Of a stretch of DNA of 58,313 bases, positions 36,190 through 55,500 are shown one piece after another. The translations under genes were made by a program, and so were the position numbers. This stretch comes from Flavicella sediminum (GTDB lineage Bacteria > Bacteroidota > Bacteroidia > Flavobacteriales > Flavobacteriaceae). Position 1 is the first letter of the stretch; the number at the start of each line of letters is the position of its first letter. The DNA is taken from NCBI RefSeq assembly GCF_006381105.1, contig NZ_VDET01000029.1, positions 1 through 58,313 on the forward strand. The letters run 5' to 3'. The notes under the pieces are model-generated. The model was given only the letters and a program-made list of their open reading frames with translations, did no database searches and was not told the DNA's origin.

Positions 36190-36882
36190 CTATAATACTC
36201 GCCCTACAATTTCTTCTATTTTCTCTTTTACTAAAGGCAATCGTTCTTCTATCATTAATGGATGGATATGTGTCATTAACACCTCTTCTAATAAACCTCT
36301 AGTTATTATTTTTTCTAATTCTTCAATTAAAAAAGATTTGATCGTTTTTTCAGTAGTCGCTATTTCATCTACTATCGTAGTTCTATTATCAAATACATAG
36401 ATAATATCTTCAATATCATGACTTGTTCTGTAGTCATTTCCCCTATTATTATAGGCTTCAAACTTTGTTGCTAAATAACATGGTGCTGAAAATATTTTTA
36501 TCTCTTGATCATTTGCTTTTACAGTCCATAAATTTTGAAAACCTATTTTGTACCATCTATTTGCTGGCCCCAATGGTCCATCTTCTGTAGACATTATATC
36601 TACAGGAATATCTTTGTACCTGTAACTACAAATTGCATGGCCTTGTGGATCTGGATGAAAACCTAAATTTGCTAACTCTTCTTGTAGATTGACCCATTTA
36701 CTTATATTCACAATGTTTAAAGTCATGTCTATATCTTGTGTAGGCCTGATTTCATCAGCTGCTGGATCGTCTGTATACAAACTGACCACAGCACCTCCTA
36801 CAAAAACTATTTCTTCTTTTATAGATTTTAATGCCCTTGCAACTTCTGCTACAACAGCTATATTTATCACTCTATTCTCCAA
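36190..36882 (-). CDS. Nucleotidyltransferase, toxin-like, paired with an HTH protein
   Basis: This 230-residue protein has the minimal nucleotidyltransferase core: a GG motif (VFVGGAVVSLY, Gly29-Gly30), TQDIDMTL (Asp50, Asp52) and a third acidic residue in IPVDIMSTED (Asp95). This is the pattern of AbiEii-like and related toxins that transfer nucleotides to RNA or protein. Residues 100-170 continue the fold (ATKFEAYNNRGNDYRTSHDIEDIIYV), and the C-terminus is helical. It overlaps the upstream HTH gene by 11 bases, so the two are translated together. An antitoxin/toxin or abortive-infection pair is a reasonable inference; the target is unknown. Confidence 0.75.
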   Translation of the reverse strand: MENRVINIAVVAEVARALKSIKEEIVFVGGAVVSLYTDDPAADEIRPTQDIDMTLNIVNISKWVNLQEELANLGFHPDPQGHAICSYRYKDIPVDIMSTEDGPLGPANRWYKIGFQNLWTVKANDQEIKIFSAPCYLATKFEAYNNRGNDYRTSHDIEDIIYVFDNRTTIVDEIATTEKTIKSFLIEELEKIITRGLLEEVLMTHIHPLMIEERLPLVKEKIEEIVGRVL

Positions 36883-37396
36883 GTTGTAAACGCTTTTTTA
36901 TTTCTGCAATTGCTATTTCCTTTTCTCTAGCCCTTCCCACTCTTAAAGCATCTACTAAGGCTAATAATTCATATAAAAGCACATCTTTTAAGGCTGCCTG
37001 TGGAACTGAACTGTACAAGGGAATAATGCTATGCCCTCTTACTGTACCTTTTGCATAAGGCCAAACATAATGTTCTGTACTATTAATTAGATTATTTAGT
37101 GGTGGAGCGGAATGAGATGTTGGTATACCACGTACTACTGCTCCAGGTTTTTGCGGAAACACATATCGTAGGCCGAATTGTAAAAATTCTAGTAGAGCTA
37201 ATTTCATAACAACTTTCCCTTTCGGATCTAACAAACCTGAAAATTTAGAACGTGCTACTGATTCACTTATTTCTGACTGGCTCATTTCTAAGGATTCTGC
37301 AATTGATTTTTGATTCCATTGAGGATTATCTACACATATCACTTTTAATAATAGTAATACGTCTTGCGGTTTCATCTGTGTGTTGTTTGCCTTCAT
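36872..37396 (-). CDS. HTH DNA-binding protein, putative autoregulator or antitoxin
   Basis: This is a 174-residue protein if started at the ATG at 37396. A TTG at 37429 would add 11 residues but lies inside the palindromic operator, so it is rejected. Residues about 8-60 look like a winged helix-turn-helix (VLLLLKVICVDNPQWNQKSIAESLEMSQSEISESVARSK). The rest contains LKDVLLYELLALVDALRVGRAREKEIAIAEIKKRL, a C-terminal helical tail. It overlaps the nucleotidyltransferase gene, as antitoxin genes commonly do. The two inverted repeats just upstream are likely its own operators. No close family name is offered. Confidence 0.7.
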   Translation of the reverse strand: MKANNTQMKPQDVLLLLKVICVDNPQWNQKSIAESLEMSQSEISESVARSKFSGLLDPKGKVVMKLALLEFLQFGLRYVFPQKPGAVVRGIPTSHSAPPLNNLINSTEHYVWPYAKGTVRGHSIIPLYSSVPQAALKDVLLYELLALVDALRVGRAREKEIAIAEIKKRLQLGE

Positions 37397-37403
37397 AATT
37401 ACA

Positions 37404-37435
37404 GTAATATCGTATATCGCGATATGCAATATTAC
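37404..37435. promoter_or_regulatory. Imperfect palindromic operator of the HTH/nucleotidyltransferase pair
   Basis: This 32-bp inverted repeat centred on ATATCG/CGATAT has two mismatched pairs. It starts 8 bases upstream of the chosen ATG. It shares the core half ATCG and the outer AATATT with the perfect palindrome 65 bp away. Confidence 0.65.
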
Positions 37436-37469: not shown

Positions 37470-37499
37470 AAATATTGCGTATCGCGATACGCAATATTT
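37470..37499. promoter_or_regulatory. Perfect 30-bp palindromic operator
   Basis: The two 15-base halves (AAATATTGCGTATCG and its exact complement) meet without a spacer. The centre is 65 bp (about six helical turns) from the centre of the imperfect palindrome, so two dimers could sit on the same face of the DNA. It lies upstream of the HTH gene. Confidence 0.7.
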
Positions 37500-37729: not shown

Positions 37730-39163
37730 TCACCTTTTTTTATTATTTTCCTTGACTCCGTTTCTGCTAAATAAAAGCATATACTTTTCTATAATTTCAT
37801 CAGCTATTTGTTCTGGTCTTTTATGATCTACCTCTATAATTAAATCGTAATTATTTTCATCAAAAACATCAATATCGTATGTATTCAAAAACTGGTTCTT
37901 AAACAGGTTATTCCTTTCATTCACAGTATGAAATGTCTCATTTGTTCTTACTGACTTCTTTAATCTTTTTATAGCTTCGTCTTCTGATACTTTAAAAAAG
38001 ACATTAAAAGATTCATTGATAAAATAAAACCCCAATCTATAGTCTATCACCAAATTATCTGATGCGTTACATTCATTCGCAAATTCACTATCAATTTTCT
38101 TATCTAATTCAGGATTCATTAAACACATTTTTTGAAATTCAACAATACTCATTTTATTAGATTTTGCTACCTCTCTCGTTTTGTTGCCTATTGAAATAAA
38201 TTGAAAATTCAGTTTCTGAGCAATCAGTTTGCCTACTGTACTTTTACCTGAGGCAACTCCACCTGATAAAGTAATTTTATTCATTGAATTTTGAGTGTTG
38301 ACATTCCAATTATAAACACCACCTCTGTTCATGAATTTTTCAAAATCATACTTCATTTCACTCATTGCAGCATTCACACCAACTTCATTTATGGGCTTAC
38401 TGTACATATGAGTCCCTTCTGTGTTGTCAAAAAACCTACCTGCTGGATCAATCATCACATAAGAACCTGTAATTTGATCATTACTTTCAGGAACAATTGT
38501 TTCTACTAGCTTATGATTTTCTATAAATAAATTAAACTCTTCTTGAGATATTTCAAATTCATCAAACTTGTCGTCATTCTGATTTTCTATACGTAATGAC
38601 TGTAATACTTTCCATCTCTCAGGCTTTGCCTTCAAGATAAAATCAATCATGTTTTCCTCAAAATTATACCTATTGACAACCGTATTGATTTTCAATCTAT
38701 AGCTATAGCTCCTTACTCTTTCAATGATTTCTCTATACTCATTTTTCGAAATGCTTTTCTTCTTAGACAGCGTTCTACCAATTGATCTATTCGTTGACTC
38801 ATTTAAACTGTCAATACTAATAGCAATCCAGTCTAAATACCCTGAGTTTTCCTTTAAAAACTTATCCGTTAATTTACTACCATTGGTTACAATCATAGTT
38901 GTCATTCCTTTTTTCTTTGCTATTTTAATTAGCTCAGAAATCCAGGGACAAATAGTAGGTTCACCACCTGCAAACGTTATTTTTTCAAAACCCTTTTCTG
39001 CTAATTTTTCAATGACTTTTATGGCCTCTTCTTTTGGCAAATGCCCTTTTGGTAAAATTGTTTGCTTTACATCTTGGAATGTGGCAAAGCAAAATCCACA
39101 TTTCATGTTACACGGCTCCCATAAATGGAAGTTTACACTTGGAATAAATTCATTTGTTTTCAT
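37730..39163 (-). CDS. Prokaryotic viperin fused to a cytidylate-kinase-like domain
   Basis: This is a 477-residue fusion. Residues about 1-290 are a radical SAM domain of the viperin family: WEPCNMKCGFC (Cys18, Cys22, Cys25 for the 4Fe-4S cluster), FAGGEPTICPW, MIVTNGSKL, AISIDSLNESTNRSIGR, INTVVNRYNFEENM, RWKVLQSLRIENQN, IVPESNDQITGSYVMID and GRFFDNTEG. These match the viperin-specific regions that bind nucleotide triphosphate. Residues about 294-460 are a P-loop kinase like archaeal-type cytidylate kinase (Walker A GGVASGKST, 301-309; EFQKMCLMNPELDKKID). Viperins convert CTP, UTP or GTP to 3'-deoxy-3',4'-didehydro chain terminators. A fused kinase could supply the triphosphate substrate or phosphorylate the product. 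An internal ATG at 38284 could also yield the kinase alone. Confidence 0.9.
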   Translation of the reverse strand: MKTNEFIPSVNFHLWEPCNMKCGFCFATFQDVKQTILPKGHLPKEEAIKVIEKLAEKGFEKITFAGGEPTICPWISELIKIAKKKGMTTMIVTNGSKLTDKFLKENSGYLDWIAISIDSLNESTNRSIGRTLSKKKSISKNEYREIIERVRSYSYRLKINTVVNRYNFEENMIDFILKAKPERWKVLQSLRIENQNDDKFDEFEISQEEFNLFIENHKLVETIVPESNDQITGSYVMIDPAGRFFDNTEGTHMYSKPINEVGVNAAMSEMKYDFEKFMNRGGVYNWNVNTQNSMNKITLSGGVASGKSTVGKLIAQKLNFQFISIGNKTREVAKSNKMSIVEFQKMCLMNPELDKKIDSEFANECNASDNLVIDYRLGFYFINESFNVFFKVSEDEAIKRLKKSVRTNETFHTVNERNNLFKNQFLNTYDIDVFDENNYDLIIEVDHKRPEQIADEIIEKYMLLFSRNGVKENNKKR

Positions 39164-39233: not shown

Positions 39234-41717
39234 TCATTCGGCTAAGTTTAAAAATGGGTATTTATTAAAAATTTGATTGGTTAACTCTATAGATTTTTCA
39301 TTACCAAACTCTGCTAATCTAATTGCATAATTCTTTAATAATAAAGGTTCATTAGGAACAATTTCTAACGCTTTTTCATAATGAAAAAATGCCTTCTCAA
39401 AATTCCTTATATCTGCATATACATTTGCAATTGCAGAATGCACATCAAAATCTTCATTCTCTAATTTTAAGCATTCTGTAAGGGCTTTGATAGCTGCTTG
39501 ATGGTTTCCGCCTTCATTTAACTCTAATCCCTTATTGTAATAATGTTTATACTTATTTCCTTTTTGTAAATCAAAATCTTTCCAAGCAATAGTACGATGA
39601 CCCATGTTTTTCAATGAAAACATTCCTTTTAATATTTCATCTTTCCCAATCATTTCTTTTCCTATCACTTCAAAGTAAGTATCCTTATCAAAAAAGGAAA
39701 TAAAATCGGGAAGTGTTTTAAAACTCATTCCTTCGTTATTGTTTAAAACATTCACTATGTCCAAATAATTCACTTTTAAGCAATCATTTATTTCAGTATT
39801 TACTTTTTCAAAGGAATTTGAAACAATCCATTTTGTTACTTTTCTGCTCTTTACATCAAAAACAGTATTTTCTTTAGATAAATATTCTTCTGCATTGTTT
39901 AGTTGATTCGCTGCTTTTACATTGGTATGAATTAACTCATAATTTTGAGCTTTATAGTCTAACCTAAAGTTTGTTCTCTTACATTGAATTAATAAAACAT
40001 TTGCTTTATCATAAACGATAAGATCTGCATCTCCATCAATTAAACCTACCTCTTTTTGGCTGGGATGTACCACCTCAAAACCATGCCTTACTAATAAGTC
40101 TTCTAATACATTTTCAACATCCATAGCTGTTCGCCTATTATTATTTTTAAGTAAGGAATTGACATATACATTCTGACTAGTAAAGCTTGTAAAAAATAAA
40201 ACAGGACTAAATATATAATCACCTAATAATAGAAAAGGTGTATCCATTACAGAATACCTAATAATAAATCTATCAAATGAATCAAATTTACGTAGATTTT
40301 TTCTGTCAAACGCAAATTGTTGTAAGACTTGAACTACAGTTTCTACTTCAAATTCCTTATCTGCTTTGCTATATAAATCTATATACTCTTCTTGGGTACT
40401 ATACACAAAAGGCAACTGAAATTTTTCTTTATTTTTAACCACTAGATATGTACATGCTTCTTGCCAATTACTTGTAAGTAACACGTTACTATTTTGTATG
40501 TCTTTTAAGACCTCGTAATATCTAACCAATCTATTAAAAGCATGTACATAGATAGGTTTTATAACCTTAGTAGCCTCTACTTTTATATTTTTACTATTAC
40601 TATCTCTAATATAAAAATGAGTTAGTTTTAAATCTTCCAAAATTTCAATTATAGCTCGTAGGTTATATGCCAAAGCTTTGTTATTTAAATAATCCTCTTT
40701 GTGTTTACTCGCTATTTCACCACCATTTTCTAATTGACTTTCAACTAAAACCCTTCCTTTATCTTGATAAACTACTTCATTCACTTTATAACGTAATTCA
40801 TCTTCAAACCATTGGTATTTAGACTCTGGAGATTCATAAAAACATAAAGACTCATAAATGTACTTTGGTTCAAATTTAGGATTAAAACAATACAGTTGAA
40901 AAAGGTTCATATTCAGAGTTTGCCTTTCTGTTATTAAACTAAGACATTTAAAAACAAGCTTTTTAAGTCTAGGATATTCATTTTTTAAAAGAGTCTTACT
41001 AAAATCAATGGCAAATTGTACTGAACTGAGAGTCTGTTGCTTTATATTAGAGTTTCTTAAAATTAAGTCTATAAAAAAATTATAAACATTGGCCAATACA
41101 CTATGATTATTTGCATCAAAATTAGCATCGAAGTTTTTTGTTTCAAAATAGGCAACCGTAAAAAACAGAATGTGCTCCAATGGATGTTTTTCTATTTCAA
41201 CGATGATACTCTCTATTTCTCTCCAAAGTTCTACTTCAGTTTTTTGAAAAGATTCCCAAACATCTTGATGAATTACATAGTCTTCACTTAGTAGACCGTC
41301 CTTTAATAAAAAACCAATACGATCCTCTCTGAAGAAAACTTCATTTTCCCTAATGGCCTTAATAAAAACAGCGGGGAATTCCTTGGCTAATTTGGATTCA
41401 AAAGCCTCACTAAAAATAGTTGTTTTAGTATAATATATAAGCAGTAACGAGACCGTGCTTTGTGAAGTAAAACAGGCCGAAAATATATTTTCTTGTAAGA
41501 TAAAGGTGTTCCAAAAATAACTAGAAGAAGCTGTACATTTTTTACATCGTGCACTTTTTACTAACCAGTTGTATTTTTTGTTTTTTCTATTTTCTTTTTG
41601 AGAATATTGAAGAAATTCGACTACACCTAGTTCCCATAAAGTAATAAAAGCTTTATGGTAATCACCTTTATGAAATGCTACTACAGCATTAATTTTAATG
41701 TTTTTTTCCATTGTCAA
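39234..41717 (-). CDS. Large protein with Mrr-like PD-(D/E)XK nuclease core and C-terminal TPRs
   Basis: This 827-residue protein has no signal peptide. Residues 1-500 are not assigned to a family; there is a CKKC pair at 58-61 and many helical segments. Residues about 530-640 hold a restriction-like core: VENVLEDLLVRHGFEVV, GDADLIVYD (Asp565) and VLLIQCKRTN (Gln578, Lys580), the D...QxK form used by Mrr-type nucleases. Residues about 705-827 are three to four TPR units (AIKALTECLKLENEDFDVH, FEKAFFHYEKALEIVPNEP). It lies 70 bp upstream of the viperin gene in the same orientation, between two defence modules. A DNA- or RNA-degrading defence effector with a sensing N-terminus is an inference. 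Confidence 0.7.
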   Translation of the reverse strand: MTMEKNIKINAVVAFHKGDYHKAFITLWELGVVEFLQYSQKENRKNKKYNWLVKSARCKKCTASSSYFWNTFILQENIFSACFTSQSTVSLLLIYYTKTTIFSEAFESKLAKEFPAVFIKAIRENEVFFREDRIGFLLKDGLLSEDYVIHQDVWESFQKTEVELWREIESIIVEIEKHPLEHILFFTVAYFETKNFDANFDANNHSVLANVYNFFIDLILRNSNIKQQTLSSVQFAIDFSKTLLKNEYPRLKKLVFKCLSLITERQTLNMNLFQLYCFNPKFEPKYIYESLCFYESPESKYQWFEDELRYKVNEVVYQDKGRVLVESQLENGGEIASKHKEDYLNNKALAYNLRAIIEILEDLKLTHFYIRDSNSKNIKVEATKVIKPIYVHAFNRLVRYYEVLKDIQNSNVLLTSNWQEACTYLVVKNKEKFQLPFVYSTQEEYIDLYSKADKEFEVETVVQVLQQFAFDRKNLRKFDSFDRFIIRYSVMDTPFLLLGDYIFSPVLFFTSFTSQNVYVNSLLKNNNRRTAMDVENVLEDLLVRHGFEVVHPSQKEVGLIDGDADLIVYDKANVLLIQCKRTNFRLDYKAQNYELIHTNVKAANQLNNAEEYLSKENTVFDVKSRKVTKWIVSNSFEKVNTEINDCLKVNYLDIVNVLNNNEGMSFKTLPDFISFFDKDTYFEVIGKEMIGKDEILKGMFSLKNMGHRTIAWKDFDLQKGNKYKHYYNKGLELNEGGNHQAAIKALTECLKLENEDFDVHSAIANVYADIRNFEKAFFHYEKALEIVPNEPLLLKNYAIRLAEFGNEKSIELTNQIFNKYPFLNLAE

Positions 41718-42301: not shown

Positions 42302-43144
42302 TTATTTCCTTTTTAACGTATCCAAAGTTTTTCCGTTTTTAGCTTTCCATGCAGTCCAACCATTTGCTGCTCGTGCTAAAATAGTTACTGCAGCTGCACT
42401 TGGTGAGTTGAAAATATAATCTTGTTGAAAAACATAAACACCATTTTCTTCTTTTAATATGGCATCTGCTAATAATTGTGTTCTTAATTTTGAAACCCAT
42501 GGACCAATAGCCTTGGCCTCATTGATGGTGCATTTACCTCCTTTGTGCACTAGAAAACCATCATCTGTTAGTTCACCTATAGCAGTGGCGTCTTTTCCCT
42601 TGCAATAAAATAACTCTTTATTGGTTTGTGCTTTTCGTTTTTCTTCAAAAATAGGATAGCCTAAGGTAGCCAACAATATCTTCGCCGTTTCAAAGTTGTC
42701 GAGCAAATCGTATTCTCTACTTTCCGGTATCGATGGCTTTTTAGACCCCGTATCATTATCTGTACTATATCTACCAATTTCTTTGGCTTTTTCTAAACAA
42801 TAATGCTCTAAGTATTTACCATCTGTTTTCGTATACTCATCTGTTTTGGTTGTGATGATTACGCAGTGAGACCAAAAATCTTTGTTGCGATTGTGTGATT
42901 GTATGCGTTTGAAACAATCTTCACCTTCACCTATATACACCATTGACTTGCTGCTATCTTCATTGATCCCAAATAAAAAATAGACACCCGTAAAATGCAC
43001 CATTTCCCTTTTTGAAACTTCTTGTATTTTATTTCTTGGAAACAAAATTGCTTTTACTAAACGATTCGTAATTTCTGCTTCACGTATACTGGTAGGGGAA
43101 CCGTCTGGCAGAAATATTTGTATGGTTTGAGGTTTGATTTTCAT
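42302..43144 (-). CDS. GIY-YIG nuclease-family protein with C-terminal DUF4357-like domain
   Basis: This 280-residue protein has the GIY-YIG core at about 50-125: TGVYFLFG (GVY in place of GIY), MVYIGEGEDCFKRIQSH (YIG, Arg80) and KYLEHYCLE with a candidate catalytic Glu113. The C-terminus (FNSPSAAAVTILARAANGWTAWKAKNGKTLD) is the DUF4357-type region found with such nucleases. The family is often encoded with type I restriction systems and may act as an accessory nuclease, but its role is not settled. It lies 25 bp downstream of the pentapeptide protein gene and 9 bp before the small protein gene. Confidence 0.8.
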   Translation of the reverse strand: MKIKPQTIQIFLPDGSPTSIREAEITNRLVKAILFPRNKIQEVSKREMVHFTGVYFLFGINEDSSKSMVYIGEGEDCFKRIQSHNRNKDFWSHCVIITTKTDEYTKTDGKYLEHYCLEKAKEIGRYSTDNDTGSKKPSIPESREYDLLDNFETAKILLATLGYPIFEEKRKAQTNKELFYCKGKDATAIGELTDDGFLVHKGGKCTINEAKAIGPWVSKLRTQLLADAILKEENGVYVFQQDYIFNSPSAAAVTILARAANGWTAWKAKNGKTLDTLKRK

Positions 43145-43169: not shown

Positions 43170-44489
43170 TTAGTTTTTACCATATTTTCTAAATGCTTGA
43201 ATTGTTTGATAGTAACCATAACCAATCATTATTTTCCCAATAAAAAACCATAAAACAAAACTCGATTCTTTTATGTGAAAAGGTATGTATTTGAATTCTA
43301 AAGGATTTATAAAACGTAAGAAACCATTGATTTCTAAATTACATTCTGTATCAGACAAGATGGAAGTCTGTCCCGTAAATTGACAATAGACAACAGGTAA
43401 ATAGTAAAATATCGAAGCGGTAATTAATGTAAAAATCACCCCGATAGACCAACTTCGCTTATAGTTATTTGAATGTTTGTTTAAGAATAAAATAAACTGA
43501 TTTCTCCTTTTGTCAATACGGCTTATAAAGTCATCCGTTTTTTTGTAATTCAATTCTTTTCTGAAAAGAGTCATTTCGTGGTGATGAAAATCTAAAGCCT
43601 CAATATGGTTTTCATTTTTACGAAATTCTTGTTTGATTCTCCTGTAACTTTCACGTAAACCTTTAAATGTTGATTTGAATAATGCTAACATAAATACTTT
43701 GTCATCCTCCTTTTGAAAACCTGAATCAATAGCATTTTTAATATAATTATCAAATGCATAACCTGAAGGTCCTATGTCTGATGAAAAAGGGAGATAGGAC
43801 TTGAATTTATGAAATAAATGGCTATGAAGATTATCTTTTTCAATACTGTCAAATAAATTGACTTTGTTTTCTCTTTTTTCTAAAGCACTTTTAATAACAC
43901 TAATATTATTAGCAGCATAAAATGACAAACTAATTAAGTCAGGTATTTCGTTCTTAATCTTGATATCATAGACTTGAAGTGTACACCAAAAATTAGAGTT
44001 TGATATATCTAATCCATTTTCAAAATGAGATTTCTCAAAACTTATATATGTGTTTTCAGATACTTTATTATGTCTAAAAATTGCAGCTTTTTCAAATTTG
44101 GTTTCTGAGAAAATACTAATATTCAAAAAATCTGTCAAATGAAATATTTGATTTTCTTCAAACGTAGACTGATAGAAATCTACCAACTGATTAAATGTCG
44201 TGTTTAAACAATTAATTCCCTTTTTGAAAACGCATCTATGAAATCTTACTTTTTGATTAAATTCATAATCCCTTAAGTTAACTTCATAATCGAAAACGCA
44301 ATCTGAATATTTCAATTCTTCACCATTACGAATAATCCTTTTCAGCTCTTTTGAGAATTGGGCTGAAGAAGAAGGTGCTGTATTGCTAAATGATATACCT
44401 CCTTTTTTTTTCCGGCTCTTACTTCCAGTGCGCTCTTGCGAATAACTATCATGTAGTTGCTTAAAAGGGAGTTTGTTTTTGTTTATCAT
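43170..44489 (-). CDS. Pentapeptide-repeat protein with C-terminal membrane helices
   Basis: This 439-residue protein has a basic N-terminus (SKSRKKKGG). Residues about 55-175 contain repeating F...xF/xxF units (VRFHRCVF, FNQLVDFYQSTF, ISIFSETKFEKAAIF, ISFEKSHFENGLDISNSNF) typical of a pentapeptide right-handed beta-helix. A helical charged region follows (FKGLRESYRRIKQEFRKNENH). Two hydrophobic segments near the end (WSIGVIFTLITASIFYYLPVVY and SSFVLWFFIGKIMIGYGYY) are probable membrane helices. Its place inside a type I RM operon, between hsdM and the GIY-YIG gene, raises the possibility of a membrane-acting defence effector. It is 44 bp downstream of hsdM. Confidence 0.7.
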   Translation of the reverse strand: MINKNKLPFKQLHDSYSQERTGSKSRKKKGGISFSNTAPSSSAQFSKELKRIIRNGEELKYSDCVFDYEVNLRDYEFNQKVRFHRCVFKKGINCLNTTFNQLVDFYQSTFEENQIFHLTDFLNISIFSETKFEKAAIFRHNKVSENTYISFEKSHFENGLDISNSNFWCTLQVYDIKIKNEIPDLISLSFYAANNISVIKSALEKRENKVNLFDSIEKDNLHSHLFHKFKSYLPFSSDIGPSGYAFDNYIKNAIDSGFQKEDDKVFMLALFKSTFKGLRESYRRIKQEFRKNENHIEALDFHHHEMTLFRKELNYKKTDDFISRIDKRRNQFILFLNKHSNNYKRSWSIGVIFTLITASIFYYLPVVYCQFTGQTSILSDTECNLEINGFLRFINPLEFKYIPFHIKESSFVLWFFIGKIMIGYGYYQTIQAFRKYGKN

Positions 44490-44533: not shown

Positions 44534-46159
44534 TTAAATAGTTTTCAATCCTAATTCTTTCAAATATTTATTATGCTCGTTTCGTGCTTTATTAGCTTTC
44601 TTCTCTATAGCAATTAATTTGTCATTTACTTTATTTAAATCAATCTTAATTTCTTCTTTGGCAGTACTAACGTATCTAGAGATGTTTAGGTTGTACTCGT
44701 TTTTTTCTATTTCTGCCATAGAAACTCTACGAGCATAACGCTCCACAGGCTCTTCTGGTCTATTAATATAGGTGTCTACGATTCTCTTGATGTCTTCTGG
44801 CCTAAGGTGATTTTGACGTTTCTCTTTTGCAAAATTACCTTCACCACTTGCATTTATGAATAGTACATCGTCGTTCTTTTTACATTTCTTTAAAACTAAG
44901 ATACATACCGGAATCCCAGTTGAGAAAAACAAATTAGAAGGTAAGCCTATTACGGCATCAATGTTACCATCTACTAATAATTTTTCTCTTATACGAGCTT
45001 CTGCACCACCTCTAAATAAAACCCCATGAGGTAAAATAATTGCCATGGTACCATTGTCACTTAAAAAGTGAAAACCATGTAGTAAAAAAGCAAAATCTGC
45101 TGCTGATTTAGGTGCTAAACCGTAATCTTGAAAACGAAAATCTTGTCCCATTTCCTCAGAAGCATCCCAACGTAAACTAAAAGGTGGATTTGCTACTACG
45201 GCATCAAACGTTTCTTTTTTAGCAGGATTCATTTCACTTAAAATATCCCAATCATTCTTTAAGGTATCCCCATGGAAAATTTCAAATTCAGAATCTTTTA
45301 CCCCATGCAATAGCATGTTCATACGTGCCAAGTTGTAAGTCGTTACATTTTTTTCTTGACCATAGATTCTGCTTAGAATACCATTATTTTTTTCAATCTT
45401 GTGTTTTACATTCAATAGCAAGGAACCAGAACCACAAGTAAGATCTAGTACTTTGTTAATTTTTTGTTTTACACCAGTTTTTGGATCTTGGCTGTCTAAG
45501 ATTACAATCTCTGAAAGAATGGTAGATAATTGCTGCGGTGTATAAAACTCCCCTGCTTTTTTTCCAGAACCCGCTGCAAATTCACCAATTAAATATTCAT
45601 ATGCATCCCCTAAAGTATCTGTATCTGTATCAAAATCTGCAATACCTTCAGAAATACTTTGTATAATGGTGCACAGTTTTTTATTCTGTTCATCGTAATT
45701 TTTCCCTAACTTTTCAGAGGTTAGGTTGATTTCAGAAAACAAGCCTTTGAAAGAGTTTTCAAAAGATTCGTTTTCTATGTACTTAAATCCATTTTGTAGC
45801 GTGAGTAATAAATCTGTTTTTTGGGTACGTGCTAGTTCTGAAATGCTTCTCCATAAAAAATTAGGTTCAATTACATAATGTACTTTTCTACGCATTTGCT
45901 TTTCAAAGTCAACTATAAATTTGGGATTTGCATCATACCAAACAGATAAAGGTGTACGTTTATCGTCTTCTTCTAAAACAGGATAATCTGAACCCAGTTC
46001 TTTTTGAACAGACGTTTCATAATTATCAGATAAATAACGTAAGAATAAAAAAGACAACATATAATCACGGAAATCATCCGCATTCATAGACCCTCTTAAT
46101 TCATTTGCTATTTTCCAAAGTGCTTTACCTAATTCTTCTTGTTTTTGTTTTGCTGTCAT
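44534..46159 (-). CDS. hsdM: Type I restriction-modification methyltransferase subunit HsdM
   Basis: This 541-residue N6-adenine methyltransferase carries the N-terminal HsdM helical domain (about 10-165). The SAM-binding motif is DLTCGSGSLLLN (239-250) and the catalytic motif is ANPPF (323-327). GEFYTPQQL precedes motif I, as is usual. It methylates the site recognised by HsdS and, with HsdR, forms the restriction complex. The order in this operon is R, S, ATPase, M, so hsdM is separated from hsdS by the PrrC-like gene; the gap to that gene is 11 bp. Confidence 0.95.
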   Translation of the reverse strand: MTAKQKQEELGKALWKIANELRGSMNADDFRDYMLSFLFLRYLSDNYETSVQKELGSDYPVLEEDDKRTPLSVWYDANPKFIVDFEKQMRRKVHYVIEPNFLWRSISELARTQKTDLLLTLQNGFKYIENESFENSFKGLFSEINLTSEKLGKNYDEQNKKLCTIIQSISEGIADFDTDTDTLGDAYEYLIGEFAAGSGKKAGEFYTPQQLSTILSEIVILDSQDPKTGVKQKINKVLDLTCGSGSLLLNVKHKIEKNNGILSRIYGQEKNVTTYNLARMNMLLHGVKDSEFEIFHGDTLKNDWDILSEMNPAKKETFDAVVANPPFSLRWDASEEMGQDFRFQDYGLAPKSAADFAFLLHGFHFLSDNGTMAIILPHGVLFRGGAEARIREKLLVDGNIDAVIGLPSNLFFSTGIPVCILVLKKCKKNDDVLFINASGEGNFAKEKRQNHLRPEDIKRIVDTYINRPEEPVERYARRVSMAEIEKNEYNLNISRYVSTAKEEIKIDLNKVNDKLIAIEKKANKARNEHNKYLKELGLKTI

Positions 46160-46170
46160 CGTTTATGTTT

Positions 46171-47241
46171 TTAAGCAAAATCAAATTTGCTATCTATTTC
46201 TGTCATTATTTCATTAATAAGCTGTTTGTCTGGCGCATCTAAGAATGATGCTTTTTGACTGTAAAACTCATGTGACCTGGCATTAATTATATCGGTTACT
46301 GAACTGACATCACTTATGTTCATTTTTTCTAAAGCATAACTAAATCTAGGTTTTCCTAAAAAAGAACTAATCGTTTCAAGTAACTGCCTTAAAAAAACAA
46401 AATGTTGAAAATCTATGTCGTCTGATGCTATAGCTTCTTTAAGATTCTCTACAAGCATAAGGTGGTAAAAAAAACTTCCCTTTTTGGTGGATTTTAGTTT
46501 ATATTTATTCTCATTTTTCTCAAGGATTCTGGTGATAAATTTGTTTTTCAACGTACCATCTTCATTTTCACTTTTGAATATTGCTGCATTATCACCTTTT
46601 CTCAGCCAACTGCTTAAAATAGAAAATAAACCTGCATGGTGTGTAGTTAAGACCACTTTAGTTACATCTATTTTCTCTTTAAATAAATCTATTAATAAGC
46701 GAGATGTATTAAAAATATTGTTGTCATCTAAACTTGAAACGGGGTCATCAATAAAAATGTATTCCTTTTGATCGTCGACTAATTCACTAACCTCAAATAA
46801 GGTTAAAAACCAACACCAAATAAATATTTTTTCTTCACCACGAGAAATTTTAATATTCGTATCCTCATCATCAGGATTGAAAAAAGAAATTGATTTCCAT
46901 CCTTTTTGAGGGTCATCATCTTGAATAAGATTGTATCTAAAATCAAACTTTGTTGAATAATACTTCAGCTTATTTTGTATATCCAATTCTGTTCCCATGT
47001 ATTGATGGAACGTATTCAAAGAGCTGTGTTTTATTTCCAGCATCGTTTCTTCATTATCCCAAGTAAACAAATCTTCACTGTACGCGTTAAAATACACACC
47101 TTGGTGAGAACCATCTTCTTGCTTAAGAGTATCTTTTAAATTAACCGATAAACGTGTTTTTCCTGTACCATTAAAAGCATAGACTAAATAAATATTTTCA
47201 TTAGCCCCTATTATGTCATCTGTTATTTCTTGTAATGTCAT
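46171..47241 (-). CDS. PrrC/RloC-like ATPase, possible anticodon nuclease
   Basis: This 356-residue protein has an ABC-type ATPase core: Walker A AFNGTGKT (22-29), signature-like ISRGEEKIF (132-140), Walker B YIFIDDPVSSLDD (161-173) and a switch-His region LTTHHAGLF. This is the pattern of PrrC and RloC. The C-terminal 90 residues contain RQLLE (Arg285, Glu289) and SHEF (His324). PrrC's reported catalytic triad is Arg320-Glu324-His356, with the same four-residue Arg-Glu step and a similar Glu-His gap (32 against 35). Length is also close to PrrC (about 396). PrrC sits inside a type I hsd operon as here, held silent by the restriction complex. Anticodon-nuclease activity is an inference; related AAA proteins also carry an RxxxE...SH region. 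Confidence 0.6.
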   Translation of the reverse strand: MTLQEITDDIIGANENIYLVYAFNGTGKTRLSVNLKDTLKQEDGSHQGVYFNAYSEDLFTWDNEETMLEIKHSSLNTFHQYMGTELDIQNKLKYYSTKFDFRYNLIQDDDPQKGWKSISFFNPDDEDTNIKISRGEEKIFIWCWFLTLFEVSELVDDQKEYIFIDDPVSSLDDNNIFNTSRLLIDLFKEKIDVTKVVLTTHHAGLFSILSSWLRKGDNAAIFKSENEDGTLKNKFITRILEKNENKYKLKSTKKGSFFYHLMLVENLKEAIASDDIDFQHFVFLRQLLETISSFLGKPRFSYALEKMNISDVSSVTDIINARSHEFYSQKASFLDAPDKQLINEIMTEIDSKFDFA

Positions 47242-47243
47242 AA

Positions 47244-48533
47244 TTATAATTTATTAGTATCAGGGAACAACTGTTGCATTAATCCTTTTTTGTGATTTTT
47301 AAGGCCTTCAATTTTTTTGACTTGCTCTTCTATTAAATCATCCATTGACGAAAGACAATTGGCTATTTTTTGTTGTTCTTTTATTTTTTTTGGGAGTGAT
47401 AAGTGAAATTTTCTTTGAGTTGTTATTGGAACCTGATTTCTTGTTGACTGAGACATAACGCGTGTGTATTGCGCAATAAAATTAGGGGTAATCAAATATT
47501 GTAACAGGTAATTATTACATAAATTCATGTTGTCGCATCTAAAATATGTGGCTGTAGTACTTAATATAACGAAATCTAATTCTGTTTCTAATCTAGCTAC
47601 AGGACCAACTGTTGCATTATGAGCAAAAAGTATATCTCCATTTTTAGCCACTCCTTTTTTAAATTTCTTGGCTCTTTCTATCGGAATTCTTTTACAGTTT
47701 TTAAAATCTACAATTCCATTAATAAAGTCATTAGCAGAAATATATGGTACGCCTTGATTCGAAAACTCTTCGCTTTTCGGATATAGTGCACCGTGATTTC
47801 CATCTAAATGGCTAATAATAGTTTTATCATCTATTAATTTTTGAATAGTTACTGCTTCCCAATCCCCATCATTTTCAAATTCAGGAAAACGGTATTTAGG
47901 CGTTGTTTCACCTTTCGCAGGGAATAGTTGTTGTAATAAACCTTTTTTGTGGTCTTTTAATACCGTTAGTTTTTCTCTTTCTGCTGTAATAACTTCATCT
48001 AAAGATGATAAACAATCTGCTATTTTTTGTTGTTCTTTGTGACATTTAGGGAAATATATTTCCATTTCTTTTAAATTGGAATTATATAATCTTTTAATAA
48101 TACCCCCATCTGATGTTTGCCAAACTAAAGTTGAATAACAATAAAACAATAACGTATTTGATATTTGTGTTTCATCATTTCCAATCCAAACAATATTTGA
48201 GTCTTGAAAATATGCATCGGAACCATCATAAACTACTAATCTACCAATAGTACCAGATGCAGAAATAAGTATATCCCCAATATTTGGAAAAGAAAATTTA
48301 CTTTTAAATTTATTATACAAATCAACAGGAATGTATGCATCTGGCTCACGACCAAATGTTCCTATTTTATAAAATGGAATTGCATTAATTGAACTGGTTG
48401 ATGTTTGCTCTTTAAAAATCCTTTTACACATCAAAGGTTTCCCTATTTTTCCTAGAGATTCTTTAATCCATTCGTCATCCTTTTCAAAAGCAGGAAAACG
48501 TAATTCAGGCAGTATTTGTTTTTCTTTATTCAT
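47244..48533 (-). CDS. hsdS: Type I restriction-modification specificity subunit HsdS
   Basis: This 429-residue protein has two target-recognition domains (about 1-165 and 215-380), each followed by a conserved helical spacer. LSSLDEVITAEREKLTVLKDHKKGLLQQLFP and LSSMDDLIEEQVKKIEGLKNHKKGLMQQLFP are near-copies of the same region. This two-fold layout is standard for HsdS and sets the bipartite DNA sequence recognised. It overlaps the end of hsdR by 8 bases and ends 2 bp before the PrrC-like gene. The recognition sequence cannot be predicted here. Confidence 0.93.
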   Translation of the reverse strand: MNKEKQILPELRFPAFEKDDEWIKESLGKIGKPLMCKRIFKEQTSTSSINAIPFYKIGTFGREPDAYIPVDLYNKFKSKFSFPNIGDILISASGTIGRLVVYDGSDAYFQDSNIVWIGNDETQISNTLLFYCYSTLVWQTSDGGIIKRLYNSNLKEMEIYFPKCHKEQQKIADCLSSLDEVITAEREKLTVLKDHKKGLLQQLFPAKGETTPKYRFPEFENDGDWEAVTIQKLIDDKTIISHLDGNHGALYPKSEEFSNQGVPYISANDFINGIVDFKNCKRIPIERAKKFKKGVAKNGDILFAHNATVGPVARLETELDFVILSTTATYFRCDNMNLCNNYLLQYLITPNFIAQYTRVMSQSTRNQVPITTQRKFHLSLPKKIKEQQKIANCLSSMDDLIEEQVKKIEGLKNHKKGLMQQLFPDTNKL

Positions 48534-51480
48534 AAGCGTTTAATCCTGCTATTTCACGCCCTTGGGCTAGTTTTGTTAATAAAGGCACTAAATCATCCAT
48601 CAATGCTTGTTCTTTTATGCTACGGTCTTTCCAACCTAATTCTAGAGGCGCTAATAAATCTGTTAGCTTTTCACCATCAAAAATCATTCTACTCAATATT
48701 TCATCGATAAAAGATTTTAGGCTTTCAATTTCAATACTATGATTTTCCGCAATATTTAAAAGTTCTATATCAGATTTTTCTGCTTTGAATTTTTGGTAGC
48801 CTACTCTAATGTCTTTTTCAGTTAAACCACTCCCTACTTTTAATGTTTTGATATAAGCAATGATATCTTCACGTTCCTCCATTAAATTAGCACTAGAGCT
48901 TAATAAATTAACCAATTGCTCTGGAGACATTTTTTGTTTGGTTGGTTTGTCATGTGTGTATTCTGAAATGAGTCCAATAATATAATCGTAATCTATAACT
49001 GCAGAAGAGAATAATACAAATTCAAAATCTAACTGCTCCACTACTTCAGGAGCACCAGGCTTGGCTTGTATTTCTTTTAAACTCTTTGCCGTATCTAAAT
49101 AATTGCTTTTAAACGAACGGAAATCATCCGTAGGCAAGACCTCTTCAATGATTTCTGCTTGGGTATCTTCTAGATCGGTGTATTGATCTAACTGTGTTTT
49201 TAAACGTTGTACCTCTTTGAATGTATTGATAAATTCCGCACGCGCTTCATCACCTTTTAAATTAGATATTTCAGAAGGAGTACATTCTAAACCTTTAGAC
49301 TCCATAAAGACTTTTAAGTTGTCTATCGCTTCTTTGTATTTTTCAATCACCTTAGCTGCAGTATCCACCACCCAAATTTCTTTAGGGTTTTCAACATCCG
49401 CACCAGAGAACAATACCATGGCTTTATTTACTTCTTCTTCCTGTTGACGGAAATCTAAAATATTACCGTAAGGCTTGGTATCATTGATAACACGATTGGT
49501 ACGAGAAAAGGCCTGTATCAAACCATGGTATTTTAAATTTTTATCAACGTATAAGGTATTTAAATATTTAGAATCGAAACCCGTTAGTAGCATATCTACC
49601 ACAATCATCACATCAATTTTATTTTCGTGAGGATAATCTGCGTTTGAATACTTTTGATCTTTGATACGTTTTTGAACATCTTGGTAATATAAATCGAACT
49701 TTGTTATCGTATGATTGGTACCAAACTGCTGATTGTAATCGTTGATGATTTTTGTTAAGGCTTCCTTTTTCTTATTAGGCTCTAGCTCATTGTCTTTTTT
49801 CTCTTGTTCTAAGTCTTCCTGCAATTGCTTGATGTCTTTATTGCCTTCTGCAGGAGGAGAGAACACACAAGCTATATTTAACGGTTTGTAGTTAGGATTT
49901 AGAGCTAATGCCTCGCTTTGTTTCTGTTTTAGAAAATCGTAATACTCAATAGCATCATTGATAGAAGCGGTGGCAAAAACAGCATTGAACCTTCTGTTAT
50001 GTGTTGCTTTTTCATGTTTAGACAAAATAGCATCCAGCACCCCTAATTTATGCGCTAGTTTTTTGAAGTCTGCATTTCCTTCTACTTTAAAATAATCTAT
50101 ATGAAATCGAAGTACATTTCTATCTTCTATGGCATGGGTAATCGTATACGCATGTAATTCCTTTTGAAAAACATCTTCGGTAGTTTTGAATGAAGCTAGA
50201 TCATCTTCAATCATTTTAGCAGTTGCATTTTCTTCAAAAATAGGAGTCCCCGTAAATCCAAATAATTGTGCTTTTGGAAAGAACTCAACAATAGCTTTAT
50301 GATTATCACCAAACTGAGAACGGTGGCATTCATCAAAAATAAAAACTACACGTTTATTACTCAACGGCGCTAAACGCTCTTTGTAATTTCTTGTATTATT
50401 AGAATCTAACGCTAAACCTAGCTTTTGAATGGTAGTAACAATAACTTTATCTGCATAATCTGTAGATAACATTCTTCTTACCAAAGTTTCTGTATTGGTG
50501 TTTTCTTCAACACTCCCTTCCTGGAATTTATTAAACTCTTCACGTGTTTGACGATCGAGATCTTTTCTATCTACTACGAATAAACATTTCTCTACATCTG
50601 GATTGTCTTTTAGCAATGTAGAAGCCTTGAAAGATGTTAGTGTTTTACCACTTCCTGTTGTATGCCAAATATATCCGTTTCCTCTGTTCTGTTTTATGCA
50701 TTCTACGATAGCCTGCACCGCATACACTTGGTACGGACGCATTACTAATATTTTTTGCTCACTGGCTACCAAAACCATGTAGCGACTGATCATTTCACCT
50801 AAGGTACACTTGGAGAGAAATTTATCCGTAAAATCGTCTAGGTGGTTGATTTTTTTATTGTCTTCACTTGCTAAAGTATACACTGGTAAAAATTGTTCGT
50901 CGGCATTGAAAGCAAAATGATTGTTGTTGTTATTCGCAAAATAGAAAGTCCGTGTTTTATTACTGACAATAAACAATTGCATGAAACACATTAACGAATT
51001 TGTATATCCGTTTCCTGAATCATTTTTATAATCTACAATTTGTTGCATTGCACGATTAGGGCTGACATGTAGCGATTTTAATTCTATCTGAACAACTGGG
51101 ATACCGTTTATCAATAAAATAACATCATATCTATGATTGCTATTTTCGGTATTCATACGAAGTTGATTGATGACTTCGTATTCGTTTTTACACCAATCTT
51201 TTATATTCACCAATGTGTAATGCAACGGCGTACCATCTTCTCTAGTAAAAGAATTTCTTTTTCTTAGATAATTCGATGCTTTAAAGACATCTGGATTTAT
51301 AATTTCTTCGCGTAATCTAGTGAATTCAGTATCTGTTAATTTTACTCTATTGAGTGCCTCAAATTTTTCTCTGAAGTTTTTATCTAAACTAGCTTTATCC
51401 CTAATATCCTTACGATACTTGTATTTTAAACCAATTAATCTTTCGATTAATTCTTCTTCTATTTGTTGTTCTTTTATCAT
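48526..51480 (-). CDS. hsdR: Type I restriction-modification restriction subunit HsdR
   Basis: This is a 984-residue subunit. Its N-terminal nuclease domain has YDVILL (Asp119) and QIELKS (Glu133, Lys135), the PD-(D/E)XK arrangement. An SF2 translocase follows with WHTTGSGKT (272-280), FDECHRSQFG, GFTGTPIF and a helicase C-terminal domain containing DMLLTGFDSKYLNTLY and QAFSRTNRV. It cuts unmethylated DNA after ATP-driven translocation. It is first in the seven-gene operon, which starts after a 310-bp gap (51481-51790). That gap holds no convincing gene and probably the operon promoter. Confidence 0.95.
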   Translation of the reverse strand: MIKEQQIEEELIERLIGLKYKYRKDIRDKASLDKNFREKFEALNRVKLTDTEFTRLREEIINPDVFKASNYLRKRNSFTREDGTPLHYTLVNIKDWCKNEYEVINQLRMNTENSNHRYDVILLINGIPVVQIELKSLHVSPNRAMQQIVDYKNDSGNGYTNSLMCFMQLFIVSNKTRTFYFANNNNNHFAFNADEQFLPVYTLASEDNKKINHLDDFTDKFLSKCTLGEMISRYMVLVASEQKILVMRPYQVYAVQAIVECIKQNRGNGYIWHTTGSGKTLTSFKASTLLKDNPDVEKCLFVVDRKDLDRQTREEFNKFQEGSVEENTNTETLVRRMLSTDYADKVIVTTIQKLGLALDSNNTRNYKERLAPLSNKRVVFIFDECHRSQFGDNHKAIVEFFPKAQLFGFTGTPIFEENATAKMIEDDLASFKTTEDVFQKELHAYTITHAIEDRNVLRFHIDYFKVEGNADFKKLAHKLGVLDAILSKHEKATHNRRFNAVFATASINDAIEYYDFLKQKQSEALALNPNYKPLNIACVFSPPAEGNKDIKQLQEDLEQEKKDNELEPNKKKEALTKIINDYNQQFGTNHTITKFDLYYQDVQKRIKDQKYSNADYPHENKIDVMIVVDMLLTGFDSKYLNTLYVDKNLKYHGLIQAFSRTNRVINDTKPYGNILDFRQQEEEVNKAMVLFSGADVENPKEIWVVDTAAKVIEKYKEAIDNLKVFMESKGLECTPSEISNLKGDEARAEFINTFKEVQRLKTQLDQYTDLEDTQAEIIEEVLPTDDFRSFKSNYLDTAKSLKEIQAKPGAPEVVEQLDFEFVLFSSAVIDYDYIIGLISEYTHDKPTKQKMSPEQLVNLLSSSANLMEEREDIIAYIKTLKVGSGLTEKDIRVGYQKFKAEKSDIELLNIAENHSIEIESLKSFIDEILSRMIFDGEKLTDLLAPLELGWKDRSIKEQALMDDLVPLLTKLAQGREIAGLNAYE

Positions 51481-52504: not shown

Positions 52505-55500
52505 TTATTTTGTGTCTGTCTGGTCTAATATTCCAGTTTTTACATCTTTCACAAACCTCAACTTAGGTAGTACTATTTTATATTCTTTCCCTTCGGTAGC
52601 ATCATACCAATAGAGTAGGTATTCTACATTACCATTAATCAGTTTGTAGCCATCTTTTAAAAAGGTATTGTATTTGGTTGTTATAAAAGACTTAGAAAAC
52701 ACGAGTATATTACGAGTATTCATTTTTGCCAAGCCTAAAGCGGCATTGCTAGCAAACTGAACCGTATCCTGTTTTAAAAGCTCGCCAGAAGTTAAGGTAT
52801 TGATTGCAGCTGCCGTAGCGTTGTATTTCTGTGATGCCAAATAAATATCTTTATGTCCTAAGATTATTTCAAAATGTTGTGGCTGTGTTGTTGTACCATT
52901 AAAACTTTTCACCTCTAATTTATCTGTTCTAAAGTTGTCAAAAAAACTAGCATTGCAATGTATCTGCAATGTTCTTTTGGCTCTTGAACAGCCTACATAT
53001 AGTACACGTTTGGACTCCGTGTCATTAAAAACATAATCTTCTAGCAATACATAAACATGGTCAAACTCTTTCCCTTTTGCTTTGTGCATGGTTGCAATGA
53101 TGATGACATTTGCATCTGCATTGATTGCATCTTCCATTTTTATTTCACGAATGTATTCGTACCAGTCTATGAGCTGTTTTTGCTTTTCGTAATTTGCTTC
53201 AAATTTTAAGATAATCGCTACACAGGTATCAAAATGAGGACTGTTTACATGCAAGTTTTTAAAAGTTCTTTTTGCCTCTATCCATTCTTTATTAAAAATG
53301 ATACCTGCGTCATTTTCCCTTTGTTTTAATGCGTCCGTAAATGTTCTTAGTTCCAATAGATCACTTAGACTAAACCCCTCTAAGCCTGTAATAAGTTTTG
53401 TTCTTTGACCTGCGTCTCTTAAGAATGTACTGAGTAATAAAGCCTGTTTATTTGTGCGAACTAATATTGCTCTTGTACCAGAATGATTGTCTTTTATGAC
53501 ATTGTCTACTACAGATTTTTCTAGATACGAACTACTGTATTTTATGAGTAGAATTTGCGCAGCATCTTTACTGTTTATTGGTTCTAAAACCTCCTGTTTT
53601 AGCCTGTTAGGAATTGTATTTAACAGCTCGTTGTTAAACTCCACAATATTTGAAGAACTTCTGTAATTTTTAATCAATGCATATTGAGTTGCCTCGTATT
53701 TTTGTTTAAAATCCAGCATGTTTTGATTAGACGAACCACGGAATCCGTATATATTTTGATCATCATCACCAACAGCAATGACTCGTATATTTCCCGATTT
53801 CTGTATGATGAGTTGAATAAGCTCCCATTCTTCTTTATTTACATCTTGAAATTCATCTAAAAGCAATACACTTTTGTTTGTTATTGATGAAATATCAATG
53901 TCTTCATTTTTGATCGCCTCTAAACAATCTTTGATTACATTTTGAGATTTTGCTAAATCTCCCAATTGTCCTAATAACTGAAAACAAAAACCATGAAAAG
54001 TTGTTATTTTAATTAAGCCTGCGTATTCTGGAACCAATTTTCTAGTTCTCGACCTAAACTCTAAAGAGGCAGCTTTAGAAAAAGTTAGCATTAAAAACTG
54101 TTCCGGCTTGATATCTTCCAACAGCAATAGACTCGCTATTTTATGTACTAATACTTTTGTTTTCCCACTACCAGGTCCCGCAAGTACCAAAATATTATTA
54201 GATTTTCCATCGTTCACTATTTTAGCTTGATCCGTATCTAAGTCGCCTATGATTTCTTTTAAACGTTTTGGAGTCAGGGGAGTCCCAATTTCAGTCTTTC
54301 TACGAGGGAAATATTTTGTTAAAAACTCTTCGTAAGGTATCCTGAAATAGTCATTTACATACATCAATGCTGACTCATAATTTTGAATTCTTTTTTTAGC
54401 ATATTCTCCAACAATATGAATTTGCTGCGTTTTATGATCATAATGATCGCCCATTTTCTCGAAATTTCCTTTCGTAAATCTAGGAATAGAATCGTCTATT
54501 TCCTCTATGTTTAACCTATTATAGGAAACCATAAAACCACCTTCAAGTTTTATAGATTTTATTTGATTTAAGAAGAGTAGTGTTTTTTCATATCGTTTGA
54601 TATCTTCTTCTTTAATCTGTCCGAATAAATGGTTGGATTCTTTTAACTCTAGCATTGAAAAAGAAACAGGTAAGTCTTTTTTCTCTTTAGACACCTGCTT
54701 TTCTTTTTGTTCCAACTGAAATTTTTCTAACAGCTCATAGGTATCAATGGATAATTCATGTCTCCAAGCTATATCGCTTTTTAATTCCTCGCTGTATTTA
54801 ATTTTAATTTGGTACAGATCATTCTCTCTATCGACTCGCGTTTTTTGAATGAAATTTCTTATTTCCCAATAGTTTAAAATGTTTTTTATTGCGTCAATAG
54901 AGGATTTTTCTAACCCCATATCAATCAAATTTTGATTCAGTTGACGCATGGATATTTTAATGCTATTTTTTAAACATTGCTGTAATACTATTTCAATTTT
55001 TCTATAGCGTTCTAATATCTTTTTAGAATTATTTGATGATTGCGTTGTATTGATAAAAGCAGTTAGGTCTTTTGAGTCCCCCAGTATTTTGAGTTCTCTT
55101 AAGGTATCTATAACATCTCTGATTTCATTCAATTTGAGACCTGTTGTATCTGCTAAATAATCAATCCTGCATTCATCATCTTTTACGATTCGTTGTAAGA
55201 CACGAGAACAGTTTTGTATTTCTATTTCTTTTAAACTTTTATGCTGATGTATTTTATCAAGTGCCTTATTTAAATTTGGCACCATTAAACTGTCGGCAAA
55301 AACACTAGGTGAATTTTGTTTTCTTTTTAAAAACCCTTGATCCTCTAATGCCGCAATGGAAGTTTTTACTTTCGTTTCCAGTTCTTGCATTTCAGTATCC
55401 CAACCAGCTTTCTGTGCAATTTCTAATGCAGAGTTGCTGATTTTATTGTTTTTTCTATATTTCGACAAATACTTGAGTCCCTGCCAAATTTGTTGAATCT

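Follow-up and report, generated by a model that had tools for sequence, protein, structure and literature searches.

Prokaryotic viperins (pVip) were reportedly described by Bernheim et al. in 2021. The animal viperin gene has CMPK2 as its neighbor, which is said to supply viperin's CTP from CDP (PMC10058120). For bacteria, an article in PLoS Biology from 2024 puts at 15% the share of viperin genes that adjoin a gene for a CMPK2-like kinase (PMC11249213). PADLOC already holds a class in which both domains form a single protein, the “Viperin-kinase fusion” (pVip-kinase, PDLC02905). The fusion analyzed here is therefore of a kind already catalogued, and the novelty implied by the initial annotation falls away, the more so as the viperin-kinase link has been published (PMC11249213).

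The window, by which we mean the whole stretch of DNA analyzed (58,313 nucleotides of Flavicella sediminum contig NZ_VDET01000029.1), encodes this fusion in the following parts:

37730..39163, minus strand: viperin-kinase fusion protein, a single uninterrupted ORF of 477 aa with an ATG start
38303..39142, minus strand: viperin (radical SAM nucleotide dehydratase) domain, residues 8-287, located by NF038283, phmmer, and Foldseek
39089..39112, minus strand: CxxxCxxC [4Fe-4S]/SAM motif (C18, C22, C25), conserved in 29/29 viperin rows of alignment A3
38285..38302, minus strand: short interdomain linker, residues 288-293, with pLDDT below 50 at residues 289-292
37778..38284, minus strand: (d)CMP-kinase-like P-loop kinase domain, residues 294-462, located by PF13189, VakA, TIGR02173, and a profile of 16 kinases
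38240..38263, minus strand: Walker A, residues 301-308, with G306 and K307 in 22/22 kinase rows of A3
38036..38044, minus strand: DYR motif, residues 374-376, with D374 and R376 in 22/22 rows of A3

The PADLOC fusion model matched the protein across all 477 aa (642 bits; E = 1.5e-193). The proposal that a viperin and a nucleotide kinase share one polypeptide was thus confirmed by a single reading frame and by the NF038283, PF13189, and PADLOC matches, and HMM matches bore out the identities first given to the halves, a viperin (NF038283) and a cytidylate-kinase-type P-loop kinase (PF13189, TIGR02173); the HMM E-values exclude chance matches to both domains. The AlphaFold2 model of the fusion, built from an alignment of 41 sequences, has a mean pLDDT of 91.0 and a pTM of 0.69, a value at which the predicted structure does not fix how the two domains face each other.

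Residues 8-281 scored 339.7 bits against NF038283, the prokaryotic viperin equivalog (cut-off, 180), and phmmer matched the viperin half to mouse viperin (5vsl) at 1.9e-52. When solved structures were searched with Foldseek, ranks 1-30 were viperins or viperin-like enzymes, the best of them being 6q2p (1e-25; TM 0.88 over the target), which is mouse viperin with CTP. A MoaA/QueE-type cofactor enzyme in place of a viperin would have the radical SAM core in common, and the MoaA model does score 78.1 bits; however, this is far under its cut-off of 284, while the viperin equivalog is over its own, and the first MoaA in the Foldseek listing stands at rank 39 (5e-10). The radical SAM half therefore did not side with MoaA or QueE, the outcome that the initial annotation had set against its own claim, and on these scores and ranks such an identity was ruled out. 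There is next to no probability left for it, and we regard it as already refuted to the extent that a sequence and a modeled fold can decide it.

The kinase half passed PF13189 (Cytidylate_kin2; 49.5 versus a cut-off of 28) and scored 109.8 bits against PADLOC VakA. Its best NCBIfam model, also matched by 16/16 scanned kinases, is TIGR02173 (archaeal-type (d)CMP kinase), to which residues 296-461 align at 82.8 bits (85.1 for the half alone), under the cut-off of 102.1; the UMP-CMP kinase family matches weakly, at 20.7 bits. The profile of 16 kinases placed the cytidylate kinase of Staphylococcus aureus (2h92) nearest among solved structures, at 7.6e-8, closely followed by 4cvn, a putative adenylate kinase (2.1e-7). 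A single-sequence search of solved structures ranked adenylate kinase first for this half, and the best 50 Foldseek matches of the full fusion model contained no kinase. Because the domain falls below the (d)CMP-kinase cut-off and adenylate kinase is nearly as close, that CMP is its substrate is something we infer. Nine residues (G306, K307, S324, G326, D374, R376, R400, R406, and R417) occur in 22/22 kinase rows of A3 and R330 in 21/22; by analogy with other cytidylate kinases, they would bind CMP. The DYR motif is perhaps equivalent to the D-x-R of those enzymes, a second alignment segment, weak by itself (i-E 4.6), having paired it with the D-G-R of 2h92.

It had further been suggested that an internal ATG could release the kinase alone:

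38282..38284, minus strand: internal ATG (Met294), at the domain border

Such an ATG does exist, but it is poorly conserved: a Met stands no more than two residues from this position in just one (L017) of the 10 other fusions of this order. A start at Met294 that yields a separate kinase as the working form would suit both the place of the codon and the kinases of split relatives, which begin at about the same point. Nine of the 10 other fusions, however, have no Met nearby, and by eye there is no Shine-Dalgarno-like stretch close upstream, a feature that is often absent in Bacteroidota. We consider a separately started kinase very improbable; Met294 is probably not a start.

The initial annotation proposed that a tethered kinase could channel a precursor to the triphosphate, recharge the product, or set nucleotide choice. 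Kinases of the CMP type act on monophosphates and yield the diphosphate, not the triphosphate. The host encodes a cmk (223.7 bits, over cut-off) and an NDK (177.6 bits) of its own, so the fused kinase is an additional one, and the step from CDP to CTP could be carried out by the host. The archaeal type is rare in the phylum: at least 11 of 395 genomes match TIGR02173 at 1e-8 and none of these is over cut-off, in a scan that scored up to 8 candidates per genome and placed 4 archaeal controls over cut-off.

When the halves were scanned apart, the kinase half aligned to positions 3-173 of the PADLOC pVip-kinase model and the viperin half to positions 180-461. The domain order is thus reversed, being viperin-kinase in the window and kinase-viperin in the model. 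A scan of the genome collection returned 334 relatives, and the counts given here rest on the best 80 of these 334. Among those 80 are 10 viperin-kinase fusions (all from genomes titled as metagenome-assembled; that of L048 is truncated by the contig end), 7 fusions in the order kinase-viperin, and 10 viperins with a separate neighboring kinase (9 as the next gene downstream, 1 upstream); in the other 53, the search found no such kinase, with weak kinase homologues directly downstream of the viperins of L082, L084, L085, and L087 counted within this last class. A kinase remnant precedes the viperin of L028, and a different kinase type adjoins viperin in L069 (thymidylate-kinase-like, by Pfam) and in L008 and L009 (by annotation). 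In the window's own family, 6 of 299 genomes match the PADLOC pVip-kinase model at 1e-60, the window included: G674 and G552 match the whole kinase-viperin model, and G504, G500, and G425 match in the viperin part only. The two same-genus genomes listed have no match to the model at that threshold.

The kinase tree comprised 28 kinases with 2 rows as outgroup, of which L096 is partial; the outgroup candidates L093, L095, and L103 were dropped. In it, the 7 split kinases from Chryseobacterium fall together with the viperin-kinase type in one clade (98/98), and the kinase-viperin group makes up another, moderately supported one (83/54). In the viperin tree (83 of 86 rows, the long branches L007, L010, and L011 left out), the viperin-kinase label requires 9 changes and the kinase-viperin label 2, and solo viperins are sister to fused ones (L040 to L017; L039 to L015). 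The kinases of viperin-kinase proteins thus branch apart from those of kinase-viperin proteins. What fits best is more than one joining, in opposite orders, with repeated loss or gain; rearrangement after a single fusion is the less likely origin of the two orders. The 9 changes, the solo sisters, the 53 kinase-less loci among the best 80 of 334, and the degenerate Walker A of L048 indicate together that the kinase is dispensable in evolution. The L048 protein itself (L048:10-1062) is a viperin-kinase fusion from Ignavibacteriota (Melioribacteraceae) and stands outside alignment A3. At L037:4914-6422, a viperin carries a C-terminal TauD-type Fe/2-oxoglutarate dioxygenase (PF02668; 9.9e-21) instead of a kinase; this viperin groups with L039 and the kinase-fused L015 in the viperin tree (100/100).

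Directly upstream of the fusion lies a gene for a large protein with the following features:

39234..41717, minus strand: 827-aa gene, separated by 70 nt from the viperin start, a distant homologue of PADLOC viperin-associated NERD with a C-terminal TPR region
39978..40025, minus strand: PD-(D/E)XK-like motif, D565...Q578-x-K580, with D565 and K580 invariant
39300..39554, minus strand: TPR repeats, about residues 722-806 (PF07719, 1.7e-8; helices in the model)

PADLOC assigned the 827-aa protein to 0 families, its “Viperin-associated NERD” model (PDLC02906) giving no match. The protein shares 24% identity over 436 columns (4e-20) with the product of the gene in the same place before the viperin of L006, which by contig and coordinates is the same locus as L062. 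A profile search found homologues in 11 loci among the best 80 of 334, all on the same strand and 32-96 nt before viperin, that of L026 being cut by the contig end; the PADLOC NERD model matches 6 of the 8 homologues scanned (the window's and that of L062 excepted), plus L038 and L051. Judged by these sequence links through intermediates and by its position, the 827-aa protein is a diverged homologue of viperin-associated NERD. D565 and K580 are invariant in 13/13 rows of alignment A2, in which L040 and L044 are unconfirmed homologues, and in 10/10 rows of A4. Pfam Mrr_cat scored 16.5 (cut-off, 21), the order of helices and strands in the model (mean pLDDT, 75.4) fits PD-(D/E)XK, and a search of solved structures with the NERD profile gave no match. 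Across 395 genomes of the phylum, with up to 2 candidates per genome scored, there are at least 3 NERD-profile matches, namely the window, G312, and G289. The NERD gene precedes viperin in the window and G312; that of G289 stands alone, no viperin being present on its contig and none from this genome turning up when the phylum was scanned for viperins, so the NERD protein is not strictly tied to viperin. The recurring NERD-type neighbor points to a second component, of which diverged forms such as the window's are missed by the present PADLOC model. When viral contigs were scanned with the single fusion protein, no relative was found, and phage records gave 8 partial matches, none over 80% of the query. 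Of 145 viperin relatives on viral contigs, 80 were retained, and the best 20 of these (L118-L137) had neither this kinase nor the NERD protein by tblastn.

The surrounding stretch is a defense island, with these further members:

36190-37429: PDC-M21A/B (PADLOC)
42302-43144: PDC-S14 (PADLOC)
43170-44489: pentapeptide-repeat protein (PF13576), flanked by the type I restriction methylase gene on one side and PDC-S14 on the other
44534-51480: type I restriction system with PrrC
52505-57358: 1617-aa protein with DEAD/Helicase_C and UvrD helicase parts, upstream of the type I restriction genes

We treat PDC-M21A/B as separate from the fusion; its listed start lies 300 nt away from where the fusion gene ends and has two TATCGCGATA palindromes around it. 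The palindromes, at 37415-37424 and 37480-37489 (0.03 expected in the window), are likely operator sites of PDC-M21A/B. As one of them falls inside PDC-M21A when the gene is read from its listed TTG, the true start is probably further in.

Other genes recur beside viperins of the relatives. Among the best 80 of 334, a response-regulator gene lies within 1600 nt of viperin in 36 loci (Pfam response regulator and LytTR domains in L013 and L022, profile only in the remaining loci), a histidine-kinase-like gene lies within that distance in 24, and either or both occur in 38. At L013:4409-5882, for instance, a histidine kinase and a LytTR response regulator are encoded next to viperin. Two-component genes are absent from all 11 NERD loci, three of which (L016, L026, and L053) have a contig that begins less than 100 nt from the NERD gene. 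Downstream of viperin, an NT5C-type 5′-nucleotidase is found in 11 of the best 80 of 334, 10 of these within the 17 kinase-fused loci; one such gene is L022:7713-8123 (PF06941). A family of 97 aa occurs near viperin in 14 of the same 80 (13 downstream, and upstream in L033), 12 of them kinase-fused. One of its members is encoded at L022:7415-7708, and two members gave no Pfam match at 0.01. The profile of this family also reaches a DUF4258-annotated protein in L011 and therefore perhaps describes a RelE-like fold; relE and hicA genes are reported to adjoin viperins (PMC10865869). Fisher tests that ignore kinship and cut contigs gave p values of 1e-7 for nucleotidase with fusion, 8e-9 for the 97-aa family with fusion, and 5e-4 for NERD against two-component genes. 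A kinship-aware test, from which contig-end rows were dropped (L014, L016, L039, L041, and L056 for downstream traits; L048 and L050 for upstream ones), left 5 independent pairs for each association and no significance (nucleotidase median p, 0.5). The nucleotidase, 97-aa, and NERD/two-component associations are leads only.

In our view, what best explains a complete viperin domain and a kinase with its catalytic motifs, seen by sequence and model in one frame beside a NERD-type nuclease-like gene and among other defense genes, is a prokaryotic viperin that brings along a pyrimidine-nucleotide kinase. We give about an even chance to the reading in which the kinase would feed CDP, the host CTP, and the viperin half ddhCTP. 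The kinase half would phosphorylate CMP (or dCMP) freed during infection to CDP, host NDK would convert CDP to CTP, and the viperin half would turn CTP into ddhCTP, a chain terminator stopping phage transcription; CTP as the viperin substrate is here suggested by the kinase type only. The tether would keep kinase and viperin equal in amount and may raise the local substrate concentration, and the upstream nuclease-like protein would probably add a second attack or a sensing step. It is the presence of this kinase beside the host's own, and the rarity of its type in the phylum, that lead us to read the fusion as a dedicated CDP supply. Alternatively, the kinase could recharge the product, rephosphorylating ddhCMP from degraded or proofread RNA and so keeping up the terminator pool, possibly in opposition to the 5′-nucleotidase of related loci. 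The use of monophosphates by kinases of this family and the downstream nucleotidases of the kinase-fused loci speak for such recharging; yet the window has no nucleotidase gene next to the fusion, and the association loses its significance once kinship is counted. Recharging is the bolder reading and strikes us as rather unlikely.

A kinase domain that acts as a sensor or regulatory module, by which infection-altered ATP or NMP levels switch the viperin half on or off, would sit well with the regulatory-looking response-regulator neighbors, with the retention in L048 of a kinase domain whose Walker A is degenerate, and with the viperin C-terminal stretch RGGxYxW, which joins the kinase via about 4-10 residues. 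Invariance at nine catalytic or nucleotide-binding positions, and near invariance at a tenth, nevertheless exceeds what a binding module would need, and split operons imply that the covalent link is not required, which leaves a sensor role distinctly doubtful. More speculatively, the Bacteroidota viperin might form the center of a modular cassette for nucleotide terminators, where an NMP kinase, fused at either end, and a 5′-nucleotidase would set ddh-nucleotide levels by recharging or removing ddhNMP, the upstream slot being filled by a two-component system or by a NERD/TPR nuclease-like protein and the window representing the NERD plus viperin-kinase form; to this larger scheme we attach little likelihood. 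Returning to the viperin with a dedicated CDP supply, one protein with both activities would allow substrate supply to be examined in a single tube by means of one point mutant.

The occurrence of both fusion orders and of the split neighbor is comparative evidence for viperin and a nucleotide kinase cooperating in bacteria, as is reported for viperin and CMPK2 in animals. Compared with prokaryotic viperins as modeled by NF038283, the window's protein is over the cut-off across the domain and has the cluster motif, but adds a second enzyme domain. With PADLOC PDLC02905 it shares the same two domains (642 bits), but in the order viperin-kinase rather than kinase-viperin, and with a kinase from another branch than that of the kinase-viperin relatives. 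The 827-aa protein is homologous via intermediates to the viperin-associated NERD of PDLC02906 and is found in the same place and on the same strand, although it escapes the PADLOC model and has a C-terminal TPR region. Animal viperin (RSAD2) and CMPK2 likewise pair a viperin with a pyrimidine nucleotide kinase (PMC10058120, PMC11249213). The animal pair, however, is encoded by separate genes, whereas the window has one protein; and while CMPK2 is said to use CDP, the family model that the window's kinase matches best is that of archaeal-type (d)CMP kinases.
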